Shown: positions 33,632 to 43,951 of the stretch, piece after piece
Numbering within the stretch: the stretch's first letter is position 1
Layout of the letters: the number at the start of each line of letters is the position of its first letter
The notes under the pieces: generated by a model
Database searches by the model: none
The model's input: only the letters and a program-made list of their open reading frames with translations
What the model was told of the DNA's origin: nothing
Position numbers and translations under genes: made by a program
DNA from: Cryptosporangium arvum DSM 44712
GTDB taxonomy: Bacteria > Actinomycetota > Actinomycetes > Mycobacteriales > Cryptosporangiaceae
Reading direction: 5' to 3'
Length of the DNA: 64,000 bases
Assembly: GCF_000585375.1 (NCBI RefSeq)
Contig: NZ_KK073874.1
Location: forward strand, 806,001 to 870,000

Positions 33632-36394
33632 ATGCTCATCCCGCCCGAGATCAGCGCGCGGCTCGACGACGTGCACGCGGTCGTGGTCCAGGGGCCGCCG
33701 GGCATCGGCCGGACGTCGCTGCTCCGGCAGGTCGCGGCGACCGCCGACGGGTCGGAGGTGCTGACCGCGGAGGGCGTGGAGACCGAGACCGGCCTCCGGT
33801 TCGCCGCGCTGCACCGGCTGCTGATGCCGTTGGCCGACCGGATCCCGTCGCTGCCGAAGCGGCCGGCGGCGACGCTCGCCCGGATGATGGCCGGTGACGC
33901 TCCGGCCGGACTACCGCTCGGCGTCGCGGTGCTCGAACTGCTCACCCGGGCGGCGCGAAGACAGCCGGTGCGCTGCTGCGTGGACGACGTCCACCTGGTC
34001 GACGACGCCTCCCGGGACGTGCTGGCGTTCGTGGCCCGCCGGATCGCGTCCGAGCCGATCACGATGCTGTTCACGATGCCCGACGACCGGCCGCCGCTGC
34101 CCGGTCTGCCGTCGGCCACGCTGCCCGGGGTCGACGCCGTGCAGTTCCTCGCCGGAACGGTCCCCGCCGACGTGGCGGCCGCGATCGGACGCGGGTGCGG
34201 TGGCAACCCCCGCGCGATCGAGGAGCTGACGCGCACGCTCTCGGCCGATCAGCGCGACGGCCGCGCCCCGCTCCCGGAGACGCTGCCGCTCTACGGCCGG
34301 GTGCGCCGCGAGTACGACGCGCGCCTGGCCCGGTTGCCGGTCGCGGCCCGCCGGCTCCTGCTGCTCGTCGCGGCCGACGAGCAGGTGGACGTCCGCACGC
34401 TCGGTCGCGCGGCCGCGGCGGCCGGGGGAGATCTGTCGGCGCTCGCGCCGGCGGAGGCCGCCGGGCTCGTCCACGAGGCCGACGGCTCGATGCGCTTCCG
34501 CTTCCCGCTGCTGCGTGGAGCGGTCTACCACGCGGCGTCCGACGACGACCGCCGCGCCGCCCACCGCCTCCTCGCCGACGTGCTCGCCGGTGAACCCGCC
34601 GGAGCCGACCTCCGAGCCGAGGCCCGTCGCCACCTCCGCCGGGCCTGGCACCTGGCCGCACTCACCCCACCTCCGCCCGACGGACCGACCGCTGCCGGCC
34701 GCACGAAGGCCGACGTCGGAAACGGCGGCGGGAGCGCGGACGGCGAGCGGGGTGCGGTCGCGGAGGAGCTGACGCGGGCGGCGGAGGTCGTTCGCGGGAA
34801 CGGCGATCACGCGGCGGCCTCCGAGGCGGTCGAACGGGCCGCGGAGCTCACCGCGAACCCGGACGACAAGGCCGAGCACCTGCTCGCGGCGGCCAGGGAC
34901 GCCTGGCTGGCGGGCCGGCCGCACCGCGCCGGTGTGCTGCTCGCCCGCCTGCGCCCCCCGCACCCGGAGGCCGCGCTACTCGGTTTCCGCGACCTGCTCC
35001 GCGGCGAGATCGCGCTGCGGACCGGCACCCCCACCGCCGCCCAGGAGTTGCTGCTCGCCGCGGCCGACCGCCTCGGCGAGCCCCACCGCACCGCCGCGAT
35101 GATCGCGCTCATCCACGCCAGCGAGGTCGACTTCGTCTCCGGCGACGAACGCCGCTACCTGCGCACCCTGCACCGGGTGATCGCGCTGCGCCGCGGCGAC
35201 GAGTCCGGCGCCGCCGAGCTGATGTTCGAGTTCTGCACCGGCATGGCCGCGACCTTCGAACGCCGGCACGCCGACGCGGTCGCCCCGCTGCGCCGCGTGC
35301 TCGAACTCAGCACCCAGCACCACGACCCGACGTTGCTGAGCTGGGCCGCCCTCACCGCGTGCATCCTCGGCCAGGAGGACACCGCCCTCGGGCTCTCGGT
35401 GCGGGCCCGCGCCTCGGCGCAGGTGCGCGGCGAGATCGCGGCCCTGCCCCGCACCTTCGAGCTCAGCACCTACGCCCAGCTCTGGTTGGGACGCCACGCC
35501 GGTGCCACGTCCACCGCGGACGAAGGCCTCGCGCTGGCCCGCTCCCTCGGCCAACCGGGCTCGGCGAGTTTCCAGCTGGCGAGCCTCGCGCTGCTCGCGG
35601 TGCCCCGGGGCGACGAGCCGACCTGCGTGGTGCGCGCCCGCGCGGCGATCGCCGAGGCCGACGACCGCGGCCCGGGGATGTCGGTGGCGATGGCCCACTG
35701 GGCGCTGGGCGCGCTCGATCTCACCGTGGGCCGCACGACCGAAGCGATGGCGAGGCTCCGCGTGCTCGTCACCGCGAGCGGACGGAGCCATCCGTTGGTG
35801 AGGATGATGGCCGCGCCGCACTTCGTCGAGGCGGCTCTGCGCTACGGCGACCGTGGGGCCGCGGCCACGGTCGGCGGCCACTTCGACGCCTGGGCGAACG
35901 CGACCGGCAGCCCGGCCCCGATGGCGCTCGCGGCCCGGTGCCGGGCGCTCGTCGCGTCCGACCCCGCGGTGGCCGAGGAGAACTACCGGGAGGCGATGCG
36001 GCTGCACCGCCTCGGCCGGCACGAGTTCGAACGGGCCCGCACCGAGCTGCTGTACGCCCACGAGCTGCGTCGACGCCGGGGTGCGCCGGCGGCGCGCGAG
36101 GTGCTGCACGACGCACTGGACACGTTCCGGCAGCTGGAGGCCGAACCGTGGGTGCGCGCGTGCCAGGGCGAGCTCCGCGCGACCGGCGAGGACGTCCGGC
36201 CCGAGCGCGCACACCGCCCCGACCTCACCCCGCAACAGCTGCGGATCGCCCGGTTCGCCGCCCAGGGAGCGACGAACCGGGAGATCGCCGCCCAGCTCTA
36301 CCTGAGCGTGCGAACCGTGGACCACCACATGCGCAACATCTTCGTCCGCCTCGGCGTCCGGTCCCGGGTCGAGTTGGTCCGCCGCCTCTCCTAG
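33632..36394 (+). CDS. LuxR-family regulator with N-terminal ATPase (LAL type)
   Basis: A 920-residue regulator. The N-terminal AAA-like part has GPPGIGRTSLL near residue 20 and VRCCVDDVHLVDD as Walker B; the Walker A lysine is an arginine here. A long alanine-rich helical repeat region follows (TPR-like), and a LuxR helix-turn-helix ends the protein (LTPQQLRIARFAAQGATNREIAAQ). Such proteins are large activators of catabolic or secondary-metabolite genes. The ATG at 33632 has no clear ribosome site; a TTG at 33605 is also open. It converges on phosphoketolase with a 4-base overlap. Target genes unknown. Confidence 0.85.
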   Translation: MLIPPEISARLDDVHAVVVQGPPGIGRTSLLRQVAATADGSEVLTAEGVETETGLRFAALHRLLMPLADRIPSLPKRPAATLARMMAGDAPAGLPLGVAVLELLTRAARRQPVRCCVDDVHLVDDASRDVLAFVARRIASEPITMLFTMPDDRPPLPGLPSATLPGVDAVQFLAGTVPADVAAAIGRGCGGNPRAIEELTRTLSADQRDGRAPLPETLPLYGRVRREYDARLARLPVAARRLLLLVAADEQVDVRTLGRAAAAAGGDLSALAPAEAAGLVHEADGSMRFRFPLLRGAVYHAASDDDRRAAHRLLADVLAGEPAGADLRAEARRHLRRAWHLAALTPPPPDGPTAAGRTKADVGNGGGSADGERGAVAEELTRAAEVVRGNGDHAAASEAVERAAELTANPDDKAEHLLAAARDAWLAGRPHRAGVLLARLRPPHPEAALLGFRDLLRGEIALRTGTPTAAQELLLAAADRLGEPHRTAAMIALIHASEVDFVSGDERRYLRTLHRVIALRRGDESGAAELMFEFCTGMAATFERRHADAVAPLRRVLELSTQHHDPTLLSWAALTACILGQEDTALGLSVRARASAQVRGEIAALPRTFELSTYAQLWLGRHAGATSTADEGLALARSLGQPGSASFQLASLALLAVPRGDEPTCVVRARAAIAEADDRGPGMSVAMAHWALGALDLTVGRTTEAMARLRVLVTASGRSHPLVRMMAAPHFVEAALRYGDRGAAATVGGHFDAWANATGSPAPMALAARCRALVASDPAVAEENYREAMRLHRLGRHEFERARTELLYAHELRRRRGAPAAREVLHDALDTFRQLEAEPWVRACQGELRATGEDVRPERAHRPDLTPQQLRIARFAAQGATNREIAAQLYLSVRTVDHHMRNIFVRLGVRSRVELVRRLS

Positions 36395-38811
36395 TAAGGC
36401 GCGGTGCCCCGGGCGGGGAGTACCCAGTCGGCCACCTCGGGCATGTCCTCCAGGTGTTCGACCACGTACTGCTCGTGCTTGGCCAGCTGCGCCTCGCACC
36501 AGGCCTTGAGCTCCGACGCGCCCGGCGGCGTGCGTCGCGCGTTGTTCAGCGCGTCGATCACCAGGTGGTAGCGCGACGCCTTGTTCTTCACGGTCATGTC
36601 GAACGGCGTCGTCGTGGTGCCTTCCTCGATGAACCCGCGGACGTGGAACCGGTCGGCGTCCGGGCGTCCGTGCACGACCTGGTGGATCGCTCCCGGGAAC
36701 CCGTGGAACGCGAAGACGACGTCCACGTGGTCGGTGAACAACTCGCGGAAGAGCATCGGCTCCATGCCGTGCGGGTGGTCCTTGGGCCGCTGGAGCGCCA
36801 TCAGGTCGACGACGTTCACGACCCGGGTGCGGAAGTGAGGCAGCCGCTCGGTGAGGATCTGGGCCGCCGCGACGGTCTCCATCGTCACGACGTCACCGGC
36901 GCAGGCCAGCACGATGTCGGGGTCGCTGGTGCCGTCGTCGTTGCCGGCCCACTCCCAGATCCCGGCACCGCGCGCGCAGTGCTCGATCGCCTCGTCGATC
37001 GTCAGATACTGCAGTTGCGGTTGCTTGTCGATGACGATCAAGTTGGTGTAGGACCGCGAGCGGAAGCAGTGGTCGGCCACCGAGAGCAGGCAGTTCGCGT
37101 CCGGCGGCAGGTAGATCCGCGACACCGTTCCGCGCTGGGTGAGCACGGTCTGGATCAGGCCGGGGCCCTGGTGGGAGAACCCGTTGTGGTCGTTGCGCCA
37201 GGCCGTCGAGGTGAGCAGGATGTTCAGGCTCGGCACCTTCGCCCGCCACGACAGGTGGCTGGCTTCCTCCAGCCACTTGCTGTGCTGGACGGTCTGCGAG
37301 GCGCTGACCATCGCGAACGCCTCGTAGGTGCCGAACAGGCCGTGGCGGCCGGTGAGCGTGTAGCCCTCCAGCCAGCCGTGGCAGTTGTGCTCGCTCAATA
37401 CCTCCATCACCCGGCCCTGATGGCTCAGCGAGATGTCGCTGTCGTAGACCTTTTCGGCCCAGGCCCGGTCGGACACCTCGAACACCGCACCCAGGCGGTT
37501 GCTGTTCGTCTCGTCGGGGGAGAACAGCCGGAAGCGGTCGGGGTTGCGGGCGTAGATGTCACGCATCAGCTCGCCGAGCTTGCGTGTCGACTCCGCCCGC
37601 GTACCGGCCGGCGCCTCGACGTCGATCGCGTAGTCGCGGAAGTCGGGCAGGTCGAGGTCCCGGGTGAGCAGCCCGCCGTTGGCATGGGGCGTGGCCGACA
37701 TCCGCAGGTCACCGGCCGGGTTCGCGGCCAGCACGTCAGCGTTCGGCGTCCCGTTCTCGTCGAACAGCTCGTCCGGACGGTACGAGCGCATCCACCGCTC
37801 GAGCTGAGCCAGGTGCTCGGGGTTGTCCTTGACGCCGGAGAGCGGAACCTGGTGCGCGCGGAACGTGCCGGCCACCTGTGTGCCGTCGACCACCTCCGGG
37901 CCGGTCCAGCCCTTCGGCGTCCGCAACACGATCATCGGCCACCGCGGGCGGGAGCCGTCCCAGCCGCCGTCGCGGGCCGACTCCTGGATCCGCCGGATCG
38001 CCGCCCACGCCGTGGCCAGCGCCGCGGCGAAGCCGTGGTGCATCCCCGGCAGGTCGGAGCCTTCGACCTCGATCACGTCGTAGCCGTGGCCGGAGAACAG
38101 CTCACGCACCTCGGCCGGGTCCTTGCGGGCGAGCACCGTCGGACCGGAGATCTTCGCGCCGTTGAGGTGCAGCACCGGCAGGACCGCGCCGTCGCGTGCG
38201 GGGTTGAGGAACGAGATGCCCTTCCAGGCGCCCTCCAGCGGGCCGGTCTCGGCCTCGCCGTCACCGACGACCGCGAGCGCGAGCAGGTCCGGGTTGTCCA
38301 TGACCGCGCCGAACGCGTGCACCAGGACGTAACCGAGCTCGCCGCCCTCGTGGATCGACCCCGGCGTGGTGACCGAGACGTGGCTCGGGATACCACCCGG
38401 TGCCGAGAACTGGCGGAACAGCCGGTGCAGACCGCTCCCGTCGCGGCCGACGCGCGGATAGACCTCGCTGTAGGTGCCCTCCAGCCAGCCGGCCGCCACC
38501 AGCGCGGGGCCACCGTGACCGGGACCGGCCAGGTAGAGCGCCTGCTGACCGGTGATCCGGATCAGGCGCGACAGATGGGCGTAGAGGAACGACAGACCGG
38601 GGCTGGTACCCCAGTGCCCGAGCAGCCGGGGCTTGATGTGCTCCGGCCGCAGCGGCTCCCGCAGCAGGGCGTTGTCCTGCAGGTAGATCTGTCCGACGGT
38701 CAGATAGTTGTTCGCCCTCCACCACGCGTCGACGCGAGCCAGGTCCGTGTCGTCGAGTTGCCGGACGCGTTCGGCGAGATCGATGGCGGTGGTATCGGTG
38801 CCGAGACTCAT
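36391..38811 (-). CDS. xfp: Xylulose-5-phosphate/fructose-6-phosphate phosphoketolase
   Basis: An 806-residue thiamine-diphosphate enzyme that splits xylulose 5-phosphate or fructose 6-phosphate to acetyl phosphate and a smaller sugar phosphate. GHWGTSPGLSF and GPGHGGPA near the N-terminus, the cofactor motif VVGDGEAETGPLEG, and SHQGRVMEVLSEHNCHGWLEGY are phosphoketolase signatures, and the length is normal. The start has no evident ribosome site and may be leaderless. It diverges from cydAB; a DosR-like box lies midway, which suggests both are induced when respiration is limited. Acetyl phosphate would provide ATP under low oxygen. Confidence 0.93.
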   Translation of the reverse strand: MSLGTDTTAIDLAERVRQLDDTDLARVDAWWRANNYLTVGQIYLQDNALLREPLRPEHIKPRLLGHWGTSPGLSFLYAHLSRLIRITGQQALYLAGPGHGGPALVAAGWLEGTYSEVYPRVGRDGSGLHRLFRQFSAPGGIPSHVSVTTPGSIHEGGELGYVLVHAFGAVMDNPDLLALAVVGDGEAETGPLEGAWKGISFLNPARDGAVLPVLHLNGAKISGPTVLARKDPAEVRELFSGHGYDVIEVEGSDLPGMHHGFAAALATAWAAIRRIQESARDGGWDGSRPRWPMIVLRTPKGWTGPEVVDGTQVAGTFRAHQVPLSGVKDNPEHLAQLERWMRSYRPDELFDENGTPNADVLAANPAGDLRMSATPHANGGLLTRDLDLPDFRDYAIDVEAPAGTRAESTRKLGELMRDIYARNPDRFRLFSPDETNSNRLGAVFEVSDRAWAEKVYDSDISLSHQGRVMEVLSEHNCHGWLEGYTLTGRHGLFGTYEAFAMVSASQTVQHSKWLEEASHLSWRAKVPSLNILLTSTAWRNDHNGFSHQGPGLIQTVLTQRGTVSRIYLPPDANCLLSVADHCFRSRSYTNLIVIDKQPQLQYLTIDEAIEHCARGAGIWEWAGNDDGTSDPDIVLACAGDVVTMETVAAAQILTERLPHFRTRVVNVVDLMALQRPKDHPHGMEPMLFRELFTDHVDVVFAFHGFPGAIHQVVHGRPDADRFHVRGFIEEGTTTTPFDMTVKNKASRYHLVIDALNNARRTPPGASELKAWCEAQLAKHEQYVVEHLEDMPEVADWVLPARGTAPY

Positions 38812-38846
38812 GACTTGAGGGTTTCGCAGGTGCGGGTCGATAAACA

Positions 38847-38864
38847 GAGGACTTTGGTCCCTGA
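38847..38864. promoter_or_regulatory. DosR/DevR-like box between xfp and cydA
   Basis: AGGACTTTGGTCCC (38849-38862) differs from the mycobacterial DosR core GGGACTWWAGTCCC at two positions. It is centred about 44 bases from both the xfp and the cydA start codons. A DosR-like regulator is encoded at 43316. Confidence 0.6.
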
Positions 38865-38898
38865 CCTCTTCCCGCCACCCGGTGTTCAGCTGTGAACC

Positions 38899-40272
38899 AT
38901 GGATCAGCTCGACATCGCGCGGTGGCAGTTCGGCATCACCACCGTGTACCACTTCATCTTCGTGCCGATCACGATCGGCCTGTCGGTGCTGGTCGCGATC
39001 CTGGAGACCGCGTACGTCCGCACCGGTAAGGAGCACTACAAGCGGGCGACGAAGTTCTGGGGAAAGCTCTTCCTGATCAACTTCGCGCTCGGGGTGGCCA
39101 CCGGCATCGTCCAGGAGTTCCAGTTCGGGATGGCCTGGAGCGACTACTCCCGCTACGTCGGTGACATCTTCGGCGCGCCGCTGGCCATCGAGGGTCTGCT
39201 CGCGTTCTTCCTCGAGTCGACGTTCCTCGGGCTCTGGATCTTCGGCTGGGACAAGCTGCCGAAGGCGATCCACGCGGCCTGCATGTGGGCGGCCTCGATC
39301 GGCACCGTGCTCTCCGCGTACTTCATCCTGGCCGCGAACTCGTGGATGCAGCACCCGGTGGGGTACCGGATCAACGCCGAGACCGGGCGGGCGGAACTCG
39401 TCGACTTCCCGGCCGTGCTCACGAACTCCACGACGCTCGTCACGTTCCCGCACGTGGTGCTGGCCGCGTTCATGACCGGGGCGGCGTTGATGATCGGCGT
39501 CGCGGCCTGGCACCTGGCCCGCGGGCGTCACGCCGACGTCATGCGTCCGTCGCTGAAGCTGGGGGCGTGGTTCCTGCTGGTGGCGTCGATAGGCGTCGTG
39601 ATCAGCGGGGACGCGCAGGCCAAGATCATGACCGAGCAGCAGCCGATGAAGATGGCCGCGGCCGAGGCGCTGTACGACACGGTGGCGCCGGCGTCGTTCT
39701 CGGTGTTCACGATCGGCTCGCTGGACGGCAGGGACGAGGTGTTCAGCATCCGCGTGCCGCGGTTGCTGTCCTATCTGGCCACCGGCCGCTGGGACGGTGA
39801 GGTCGAGGGGATCAACGACGTCCAGCGTGACTCCGAGGCCGCCTACGGCCCGGGCGACTACCGGCCCGTCGTTCCGGTCACCTACTGGTCGTTCCGCCTG
39901 ATGATCGGGTTCGGCCTCCTGGCCCTGGCCGTGTCCGCGGCCCTGTTGGTCTTCCTCCGCAGGCCCCGGCCCTGGCTCTGGAAGGTCGCGGTGTGGGCGA
40001 TCCCGCTGCCGATCCTCGCGAACTCGTTCGGGTGGATCTTCACCGAGATGGGCCGTCAGCCGTGGGTCGTGCACGGGCTGCTGCGCACCGCCGACGGTGT
40101 CTCGCCGAACGTCCCCGCGGCCACGATCGCGACGTCGCTCACCGTCTTCACGCTGCTCTACGGCGCGCTCGCCGTGGTGGAGTTCGGGCTGATGGCGAAG
40201 TACGCGAAGGCCGGGCCCGACGAAGCCGCCGCCCCTGACGACGCCGAGCGCCCCGTCGCGTTCGCCTACTGA
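38899..40272 (+). CDS. cydA: Cytochrome bd oxidase subunit I
   Basis: A 457-residue membrane subunit. The heme b595 ligand histidine is in VYHFIFVPITIG near residue 18, the heme b558 histidine in TFPHVVLAAFMTG near 193, and GRQPWVVHGLLRT is the conserved block after the Q loop. The Q loop is short, as in most Gram-positive CydA. The enzyme oxidises quinol and reduces oxygen with high affinity at the membrane. It begins the cydAB operon. Confidence 0.95.
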   Translation: MDQLDIARWQFGITTVYHFIFVPITIGLSVLVAILETAYVRTGKEHYKRATKFWGKLFLINFALGVATGIVQEFQFGMAWSDYSRYVGDIFGAPLAIEGLLAFFLESTFLGLWIFGWDKLPKAIHAACMWAASIGTVLSAYFILAANSWMQHPVGYRINAETGRAELVDFPAVLTNSTTLVTFPHVVLAAFMTGAALMIGVAAWHLARGRHADVMRPSLKLGAWFLLVASIGVVISGDAQAKIMTEQQPMKMAAAEALYDTVAPASFSVFTIGSLDGRDEVFSIRVPRLLSYLATGRWDGEVEGINDVQRDSEAAYGPGDYRPVVPVTYWSFRLMIGFGLLALAVSAALLVFLRRPRPWLWKVAVWAIPLPILANSFGWIFTEMGRQPWVVHGLLRTADGVSPNVPAATIATSLTVFTLLYGALAVVEFGLMAKYAKAGPDEAAAPDDAERPVAFAY

Positions 40273-40283
40273 GGACGTTTCCC

Positions 40284-41282
<999 letters not shown>

Positions 41283-41291
41283 ATTACATCC

Positions 41292-41930
41292 ATGGAATTC
41301 GAACCCTCCGAGCCGGGGCCCCGTTCTCTTTCCGTGGACTTGTCGGAGAGAACGCTACGGCTGGAGAACGTCAGGGACGGTGTCTCGTTCGAGGTCCGGC
41401 CACGGCGGGTCACCGCGCTGTTCGGCTCCGACGACGCGTCGAACCTGCTGACCGTCGCACTCGGTCTGGTGCGGCCCGAGCAGGGGCGGGTCACGGTCGA
41501 CGGCGTCGATCTGGACGATCTCGACCCTTCGGCCTGGTGGTCCGAGGTCGCCTGGGTGCCGCGGCGGCCGGCGCTGGTCGCCGGTTCGATCGCGGAGAAC
41601 ATTCGGATGGGGTGGTCGGCGACCGACGCCGAGGTCGCGGACGCGGCGCGTGCGGCCGGTCTCGACGGGACGCTCGACGCGGTGGTCGGCGAGGACACCC
41701 GGGCCGACGACCGGCGTCAAAGGATCGGGCTCGCGCGGGTGTTCCTGCGTAACTCCGCCGTCGTGCTGCTCGACGAGCCGACGGCGATGCTCGACGCCGA
41801 CGGCGAGGAAGCGCTCGCGGTGCTGCGCCGGCTGGTGGCCGGGCGGACCGTGCTGCTGGCCGTGCACCGGCCCGCCCTGCTGGCCATCGCCGACGTCGTC
41901 ATCGCGGTGCCCGCGCTCGTGCCGGCCTAG
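41292..41930 (+). CDS. CydD-like ABC ATPase domain, stand-alone and degenerate
   Basis: A 212-residue protein that matches only the nucleotide-binding half of CydD/CydC exporters (VDGVDLDDLDPSAWWSEVAWVP, AGSIAENIRMG). The membrane domain is missing. Walker A is changed to FGSDDASNLL, without the lysine or serine, and the LSGGQ signature has become TRADDRRQR; Walker B (VVLLDEPTAMLD) and the switch histidine (LLAVHRPALL) remain. It lies 9 bases after cydB, where cydDC normally stand. It is probably unable to hydrolyse ATP by itself; it is either a relic or a regulatory partner of an unseen protein. Confidence 0.8.
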   Translation: MEFEPSEPGPRSLSVDLSERTLRLENVRDGVSFEVRPRRVTALFGSDDASNLLTVALGLVRPEQGRVTVDGVDLDDLDPSAWWSEVAWVPRRPALVAGSIAENIRMGWSATDAEVADAARAAGLDGTLDAVVGEDTRADDRRQRIGLARVFLRNSAVVLLDEPTAMLDADGEEALAVLRRLVAGRTVLLAVHRPALLAIADVVIAVPALVPA

Positions 41931-41949: not shown

Positions 41950-42561
41950 CTAGTGCAGCCGGTCGCGCCACTGACGTTCGAACAGCAGCCACTCGCGGGT
42001 CCAATCGGCGTCGCGCCGCTCGTCCAGGCGGCCACGGCCCCACTGGTAGAGGCCCCAGATCATCAAACCGAACATGCTGACGCAGCCGAGCACCGTCGCT
42101 CCGGCCCGGAACCGCAGGTCGGCGGGTTCGACCGGGGGCCGCACCGGCGCGTAGTCCGCGTCCATCCACACCTCGACCGACGCGCCGCCGAGCGCACCGG
42201 CCGGTGCCCCGAACACGTTGCCGGTCCGCATCGTGCCGTCGGGGAGCGTCCAGGTGGCCGGCACGCCGGGCCCCCGCGCGGGCGGCACCGAGCCGACCGG
42301 GGTGCGTCCGCCCGGGGTCTCGGAGAGCAGCACGACCGGCACCTGACGCAGGTGCGACCGCACGGCGGTGGCCTCGTCCAGGCCCCGGTGGTAGGTGCCG
42401 AGGACGACCAGGAACGAGATCACCGACACCGCGAGGACGGCCAGCGACGAGAGGATTCTGAGCGTGCGCTCCAGCCGATCGACCCGGCGCCGCAGCGGGC
42501 TCCTGGTCAGCCCGAGCGACCGCACCGCACGGCGGCCGAGCGTGTACTTCGGCTGGCGCAT
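41950..42561 (-). CDS. Rv1733c-like membrane protein
   Basis: A 203-residue protein with two membrane helices (near 45-65 and 160-180) flanking an extracytoplasmic part. The order hydrophobic segment, HLRQVPVVLLS, VPATWTLPDGTMRTGNVFG, VEVWMDADYAPVRPP, second segment matches the mycobacterial Rv1733c family, whose founder belongs to the dormancy (DosR) regulon. AAGGAG eight bases before the ATG sets the start. A GGGACC half site lies 64-69 bases upstream. Function unknown; it stands between cydAB and the DosR-like gene. Confidence 0.75.
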   Translation of the reverse strand: MRQPKYTLGRRAVRSLGLTRSPLRRRVDRLERTLRILSSLAVLAVSVISFLVVLGTYHRGLDEATAVRSHLRQVPVVLLSETPGGRTPVGSVPPARGPGVPATWTLPDGTMRTGNVFGAPAGALGGASVEVWMDADYAPVRPPVEPADLRFRAGATVLGCVSMFGLMIWGLYQWGRGRLDERRDADWTREWLLFERQWRDRLH

Positions 42562-42630
42562 CGATGGTTCTCCTTGCCGGTGTCCGGACCCTCCGTCAGC
42601 TAGACGACGCGAGCGTGGGGTCCCGTTCAT

Positions 42631-43261
42631 TCAGGCGTCGAACGGCACCGTCCAGTGCAGACGCGCGACGTTCGTCAGCGCCTCGCCGCGCAGTCCGCTG
42701 GGCCGGTCGACCGGTCGGCCGGACCCCACCGCCAGCGCGGCCTGCCCGGCGAACGCCTGCACCATCCGGACGCCGGCGTCCCCGAACGGCTTCCCGCCGG
42801 GCCCGCGAACCACCGCGATCAGGCCGAGCAGGTGCCCACCGGCCACCGGCGGCACGAGTACCGCCGGACCGTCGAACGGGTTCGGAGTCTCCTCGGGGGA
42901 GAGGGGGCGGCTCCCGGCGGCCAGCGGGTACCGCGCGCGCTGGGTGTGTCGAGCGCGGCGGCGATCGTCTCGTCGAGCCGGTAACGGTGGCCGGTGACCG
43001 GCTCCATCAGCCCGGAGCCTTGGCCGCTCTCGCGGGAGCAGGAGCAGCGCGGAGTCCGCGTGCGCGATCTCGGTGGCCTCGGCCGTGATCAGCGCGGCCG
43101 TCCCGGTCGTGTCCGCACCCCGCAGCAGCGCGGCCGTGACGTCGGTGGACGCGGTGAGCCACTGCTCGGGCCGGTGGGTGGTGGGGCGGGCTCAGGTCGC
43201 TGGCGATCGACACCACGGCGTCGAGCAGCCGGTGCAGCCGTCCGAGTGGAACGTCGGCCAC
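42631..43261 (-). pseudogene. Decayed DosS/DevS-like sensor kinase
   Basis: Minus-strand pieces in different frames line up with a GAF histidine kinase of DosS type. From the 5' end: GRLHRLLDAVVSIASDL (from 43261), then in another frame PEQWLTASTDVTAALLRGA with a following helix ending LLLLPRE (about 43200-43030), then MEPVTGHRYRLDETIAAAL (about 43010-42930), then VPPVAGGHLLGLIAVV and MVQAFAGQAALAVG (about 42860-42720), and finally GEALTNVARL, which looks like a kinase N box, before a stop at 42631. The first GAF domain, the phosphoacceptor helix and most of the ATPase are gone. At least three frame changes and two deletions are needed. Confidence 0.7.
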
Positions 43262-43315: not shown

Positions 43316-43951
43316 GTGATCAGGGTCTATCTCCTCGACGACCACGAGGTCGTCCGTCGTGGTCTGGCCGCGCTCCTGGAATCCAGCGGTGACATCGAGG
43401 TGATCGGGGAGTCCGGCTCCGCACCCGAGGCCACCCGGCGGATCCCCGCGCTGCGCCCGGACGTCGCCGTGCTCGACGCCCGCCTCCCCGACGGCAACGG
43501 CATCGACGTCTGCCGTGACGTCCGGTCGGCCGACCCGTCGATCAAAGCCCTGATCCTCACCTCGTACCAGGACGACGAGGCCCTGTTCAGCGCGATCATG
43601 GCCGGAGCCGCCGGCTACGTGCTCAAGCAGATCCGCGGCACCGACCTGGTCGACGCGATCCGGCGGGTCGCGGCCGGGCAGAGCCTGCTCGACCCCGCGG
43701 TGACCCAGCAGGTGCTCACCCGGATCCGCGACGGCCACGACGACCAGCCGCCGGAGCTGGCCCGGCTCACCGGGCAGGAGCGGCGGATCCTCGAGCTGAT
43801 CGCGCAGGGGCTGACCAACCGGCAGATCGGCGACGAGATGTTCCTGGCCGAGAAGACGGTCAAGAACTACGTCTCCAGCCTGCTGTCGAAGCTCGGGCTC
43901 GAACGCCGCACCCAGGCCGCGATCCTCGCGACCAAGCTGCTCGCGAACTAG
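43316..43951 (+). CDS. devR: DosR/DevR-like response regulator
   Basis: A 211-residue NarL-type regulator very close to mycobacterial DosR: LLDDHEVVRRGLAALL at the start, phosphoacceptor D54 in VAVLDARLPDGNGI, ILTSYQDDEA, AGAAGYVLKQI, and a LuxR domain with LTNRQIGDEMFLAEKTVKNYVSSLLSKLGLERRTQAA (quoted here by its parts). DosR turns on genes for survival under hypoxia, NO or CO when phosphorylated by DosS/DosT. The kinase beside it is decayed, so phosphorylation must come from elsewhere. GTG start; a DosR box upstream suggests autoregulation. Confidence 0.88.
   Translation: MIRVYLLDDHEVVRRGLAALLESSGDIEVIGESGSAPEATRRIPALRPDVAVLDARLPDGNGIDVCRDVRSADPSIKALILTSYQDDEALFSAIMAGAAGYVLKQIRGTDLVDAIRRVAAGQSLLDPAVTQQVLTRIRDGHDDQPPELARLTGQERRILELIAQGLTNRQIGDEMFLAEKTVKNYVSSLLSKLGLERRTQAAILATKLLAN

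Follow-up and report, generated by a model that had tools for sequence, protein, structure and literature searches.

Immediately downstream of the cydA and cydB genes at one locus of Cryptosporangium arvum DSM 44712 lies a short gene that resembles the ATPase part of a CydD exporter subunit. The question raised by this locus is whether such a fragment is a remnant of a lost exporter or a protein that has been put to another use. The initial annotation of the window (the whole 64,000-nucleotide stretch of DNA that was analyzed) had offered both, a relic under relaxed selection or a repurposed, non-catalytic subunit of cytochrome bd assembly. The 212-residue open reading frame that it described is indeed present, beginning with an ATG 9 nt past the cydB stop codon. 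No Shine-Dalgarno-like sequence lies 5' of this ATG, which leaves it in a weak start context. The coordinates of the gene and its surroundings are given in Table 1.

Table 1. Features of the second cyd operon and its surroundings, in window coordinates.
Feature	Coordinates	Strand	Evidence
Phosphoketolase (XFP), divergent, conserved left border of the locus	36391..38811	-	NF003619, 1265 bits; 88-92% identity in three congeners
14-bp palindrome AGGACTTTGGTCCC, between XFP and cydA	38848..38861	+	1 mismatch to GGGACTTTNGTCCC; DosR/DevR box-like
cydA of the second cyd operon, 457 aa, seemingly intact	38899..40272	+	PF01654, 584 bits; tree
cydB of the second cyd operon, 332 aa, seemingly intact	40284..41282	+	TIGR00203, 369.6 bits (cut-off 117.3)
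Orphan CydD-type NBD, 212 aa, without membrane domain	41292..41930	+	TIGR02857 match 331-529; motif table
Rv1733c-family membrane protein, convergent with the orphan NBD, right border	41950..42630	-	NF050032, 106 bits (cut-off 80)

The best-matching family of the encoded protein is CydD (TIGR02857, E=1.7e-43), with a score of 149 bits where the cut-off for the whole protein is 435. The match is confined to model positions 331-529 of 529, which is the nucleotide-binding domain (NBD) alone, and Pfam ABC_tran likewise finds one domain (56.5 bits). With CydD as its best model and a place in the tree with the CydDs of the genus, the protein is a CydD-type ABC exporter NBD. The membrane domain (TMD, model positions 1-330) is absent: the match begins at 331, and the gap to cydB is too short to hold it. 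For the motif comparison, the intact CydD of C. arvum itself served as the reference. The Walker A motif GPSGTGKST reads GSDDA--SN as aligned, with no Lys and two codons deleted, and so departs from the pattern GxxGxGK[ST]; the ABC signature LSAGE has become -ADDR, which does not fit the pattern LS[AGS]G[EQ]. Thus, the loss of the P-loop Lys and of the signature, both of which had been claimed, is borne out by the alignment, as is the claimed retention of the Walker B Asp-Glu and the switch His; the LD of the D-loop is kept as well. In addition to the losses described earlier, the A-loop Tyr is missing and the Q-loop Gln is replaced by Arg. We infer that the product cannot serve as an exporter subunit because the TMD and the P-loop are missing and, in C. 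arvum, the signature loop as well. Single-sequence structure prediction gave a mean pLDDT of 40.5 and an unusable model.

The closest paralogue of the orphan NBD in its own genome (60% identity, at 7.657 Mb) lies within a full cydA-cydB-cydD-cydC operon at about 7.655-7.661 Mb (L031 13302..7447, minus strand). The operon in the window is therefore a second, pared-down copy, which we call cyd2. The earlier claim that the ATPase half survives only as a fragment thus holds for the locus but not for the genome, in which a search for a complete cydDC finds it in the cydABDC operon at ~7.65 Mb. This complete CydDC would carry out the heme/thiol export needed for bd assembly. The second cydAB (38899-41282) has no cydDC of its own; judged by sequence, these two genes probably still make an oxidase, and they presumably depend in trans on the single CydDC of the genome.

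We compared the locus, read in window orientation, with those of three congeners (G001, G002 and G003), each of which has one complete cyd operon. In C. arvum the order is phosphoketolase(-), cydA, cydB, NBD and Rv1733c-family gene(-), and relatives of the last of these are present in all three congeners. The G001 locus consists of phosphoketolase(-), NBD and Rv1733c-family gene(-), with cydAB absent. In G003, phosphoketolase(-) and the Rv1733c-family gene(-) lie ~140 bp apart with no NBD, and in G002 phosphoketolase(-) stands beside a GAF sensor kinase and a DUF2231 gene, again with no NBD. Among the three congeners, a stand-alone NBD at the locus is thus found in G001 alone, and an orthologue with an intact exporter at the locus is found in none of them. 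On these grounds, we reject the idea that an intact exporter at this site was truncated recently. The suggested link to bd assembly is weakened as well, since the NBD of G001 persists without adjacent cydAB and a complete cydDC lies elsewhere in both genomes. The G001 gene also bears on whether a sequencing or assembly artefact has cut a complete cydD in C. arvum. Such a fault does occur in the genus, in that an N interrupts the main cydD of G003 (L064, G003:C63), which is divided and in part duplicated there, probably through an assembly fault. However, the C. arvum genome is a single 9.2-Mb contig, the 9 nt after cydB leave no room for a TMD, and the orthologous NBD-only gene was found independently in G001, which refutes this explanation and reduces its probability to almost nothing.

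In G001, the NBD gene is open over 195 aa; it lacks the ATG used in C. arvum, and its first start is a GTG further downstream. A TAG that had seemed to be an internal stop proved to be the gene's own stop codon. The two orphans are 63% identical over aligned columns, and both have the Walker B Asp-Glu and the switch His. In the G001 orphan, Walker A (GP---GTET), A-loop and D-loop are gone, and the Q-loop and an LTAGE signature are kept, whereas C. arvum has lost the Q-loop and signature and kept the D-loop. The only ATP-site losses common to both are therefore those of the A-loop and P-loop. Such species-specific lesions are as expected if the motifs drifted freely after function was lost. A profile of the two orphans was searched in 299 genomes of the order and 395 of the class, and among the ~150 best matches listed for each there is no further stand-alone full-length NBD gene besides that of G001. 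Among these matches, CydD-type NBDs sit in frames of >500 aa with the exception of a few shorter frames, which were mostly at contig ends or in incomplete genomes and were left out of the stand-alone verdict. A contig scan with the single orphan protein, based on species-specific peptides, returned only seven matches, all to distant ABC proteins. No report of a stand-alone CydD NBD was found in the open-access library of papers that was searched.

The NBD tree groups the two orphans together (support 99), next to the main CydDs of all four congeners. Likewise, the CydA tree places the window copy as sister to a group formed by the four main-operon CydAs of the genus, with both splits at 100. 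Since the window CydA and the orphan NBD are sister to all of the main copies, the trees show that duplication of the cyd operon predates the diversification of the genus. The CydA tree gives no support to horizontal acquisition of the window cydAB from a source outside the genus. The rpoB nucleotide tree makes C. arvum and G001 sister species (96); the rpoB protein tree is uninformative, with G004 badly aligned, and the small single-gene cyd trees leave the root of the genus without clear placement. A position of G001 as the outgroup, first hinted at by the XFP identities, is spoken against by the rpoB and CydA trees.

These results suggest an order of events. After the early duplication that the trees show, one copy of the cyd operon would have lain between the phosphoketolase and Rv1733c-family genes. 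In the line leading to C. arvum and G001, the copied cydD would then have lost its membrane domain and cydC would have been deleted, leaving cydAB and a free NBD. The sequence alignable between the two orphans starts at the C. arvum start codon, and because this 5' boundary is common to both species and the TMD is missing in both, the cut may be taken as a single shared event that most likely preceded their split. Afterwards, the NBD would have lost ATP binding through lesions that differ by species, cydAB would have been lost from G001, and the whole copy would have been lost, once or twice, from G002 and G003. Upstream of the NBD, the G001 sequence passes directly into a stretch shared with G002 and G003, the conserved promoter region of phosphoketolase, indicating that the loss of cydAB from G001 extended as far as this junction. 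Weakened but real purifying selection would have kept the fold, so that the gene would encode a pseudo-NBD on its way out and would not be a dead pseudogene.

Selection was estimated for 10 sequences with our own implementation of a codon model (GY type, F3x4, branch-specific omega). When all columns were used, omega was 0.153 on the two orphan branches versus 0.09 elsewhere; omega=1 on the orphan branches was rejected (2dlnL 69), and the difference between orphan and background omega was not significant (2dlnL 2.8). In 137 conservative core columns, the joint omega of the orphans was 0.116 and omega=1 was again rejected (2dlnL 62). A dN/dS near one, which the initial annotation had named as the mark of simple decay, is thus not what we observe for the two branches jointly (0.12-0.15). 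A plain pseudogene, neutral since truncation and still open because stops are rare in GC-rich DNA, finds some support when the branches are fitted separately with free lengths in the core columns, since omega for C. arvum is then 0.87 and indistinguishable from 1. That fit assigns dS values of 0.11 and 1.92 to two equally old branches, a sign of saturation and poor identifiability. When tip dS was instead set to 0.5-0.8 to match the main copies, omega was 0.12-0.36 for C. arvum and 0.13-0.24 for G001, and 1 was rejected each time. Chance does leave some frames open, as simulated neutral sequence (d=0.3-0.8, 72% GC) stayed open in 7-19% per lineage before indels. However, the gaps in the coding part of the nucleotide alignment of the two orphans (6, 12, 15, 6 and 3, 12, 15, where the 12/15 pair is adjacent and may be one event) are all multiples of three, while several frameshifts would be expected at an assumed indel rate of 5% of substitutions. 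A local control is provided by the sensor-kinase gene at ~42.63-43.24 kb, ~1 kb away, which is intact in G002 but visibly decayed, with frameshifts and deletions, in C. arvum. Neutral decay over the whole history of the gene is rejected by these codon comparisons, and we consider a plain pseudogene improbable.

The constraint on the orphan NBD is, by the same kind of evidence, real but clearly weaker than that on intact CydD, and the selection shown is an average over branches. Differences at codon positions 1/2/3 are 0.275/0.244/0.43 between the orphans and 0.155/0.099/0.433 when the main CydDs of C. arvum and G001 are compared, such that the orphans differ ~2x as much as intact CydD at replacement positions. 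Residues at the ATP site are the most affected. Out of 17 that are invariant in 12 intact CydDs, 10 are changed in C. arvum and 7 in G001, compared with 13/62 (21%) of the other invariant residues in each orphan; intact congeners show 0/17 ATP-site changes and 0-5% of the others. When pooled, 17/34 ATP-site positions are changed versus 26/124 elsewhere (p=0.002, a value inflated because one deletion takes out several residues; for G001 alone the contrast is not significant). This preferential loss indicates that ATP use was released more than the framework was. We favor, with a probability of about 0.5, the reading of the gene as an ATP-dead truncation relic of the second cyd operon, encoding a pseudo-NBD under weakened constraint. 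Of the original pair of alternatives, the old relic stands in so far as its constraint is weaker than that of intact CydD, while decay throughout does not. Omega below 1 and indels in threes count against this reading as well, as they indicate that selection has not simply lapsed. If truncation preceded the species split, selection acted on a protein without a TMD, which argues for some function.

Such a function is offered by repurposing, in which an ATP-less free NBD would retain its fold as a partner or regulator of another NBD, the likeliest being that of the genome's complete CydDC. Purifying selection on the orphan branches, frame-preserving indels and retention of most of the framework while ATP-site residues were lost would all fit this alternative, as would the persistence of the NBD in G001 after cydAB loss and the almost intact LTAGE signature loop there. 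E. coli CydDC offers a parallel, since CydD is degenerate and the catalytic site is that of CydC, faced by the CydD signature loop (PMC10374445). A CydD-type domain therefore need not hydrolyze ATP to matter, and action in trans is possible in principle. However, C. arvum has lost the signature loop and Q-loop, exactly the parts that such pairing needs; the pattern of ATP-site loss is unshared beyond the A-loop and P-loop, about a fifth of the framework invariants have changed too, and the gene is absent from G002 and G003. Repurposing is thus a possibility to be taken seriously, but one that we do not expect to hold. The specific version in which a free-standing, ATP-less CydD NBD acts in trans in this one actinobacterial clade, with the complete CydDC or bd oxidase assembly at low oxygen as possible targets, is more tentative still and rather unlikely.

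Bacterial operon duplication followed by partial deletion can leave gene remnants, and cyd2 resembles such cases in that a redundant operon has been lost stepwise and differently per species. It differs in that the orphan keeps its reading frame and much of its fold, with omega below 1. Compared with the CydD of CydDC (TIGR02857), the orphan is a direct paralogue, sister to the CydD NBDs of the genus and matched over the full NBD span, but it lacks the TMD, Walker A, A-loop, Q-loop and signature. The degenerate sites of heterodimeric ABC exporters, as described in a review (PMC7756269) and, for E. coli CydD, in PMC10374445, are similar in that an NBD needs no ATP hydrolysis of its own. Those NBDs keep a TMD and work inside a transporter, and E. 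coli CydD still binds nucleotide, whereas the orphan has lost both TMD and P-loop. The four congeners amount to a natural experiment, with a duplicated bd-oxidase operon at different stages of loss and an ATPase part reduced to an ATP-less NBD whose release by selection is still incomplete. If the orphan is functional, a CydD-type NBD can act without a membrane domain and without ATP, which would bear on the role of the degenerate half of CydDC. If it is not, the case advises caution, as stop-free fragments of low omega can outlive their function.

The surroundings of cyd2 have features of their own. The divergent phosphoketolase/cydA promoter region (38811-38899) carries the palindrome AGGACTTTGGTCCC, and at the corresponding place the three congeners, which have no cydAB here, share a conserved AACAGGG...CACTGTT inverted repeat. 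Phosphoketolase, cydAB, the Rv1733c family, a NarL/MadR-type response regulator and GAF sensor kinase remnants are members of the locus, and this content, with AGGACTTTGGTCCC before cydA, recalls the DosR hypoxia regulon of mycobacteria. The palindrome may serve as a lead to a DosR-like box and is not significant by itself in the window, where there are 4 matches at <=2 mismatches versus 1.6 expected by chance. The GAF sensor histidine kinase remnant (42631-43241, minus strand) has frameshifts and large deletions and is 58% identical to residues 199-360 of the intact 574-aa kinase of G002 (L065 7526-9250). Beside it, the NarL-type response regulator at 43316-43951 is intact and is possibly an orphaned regulator.
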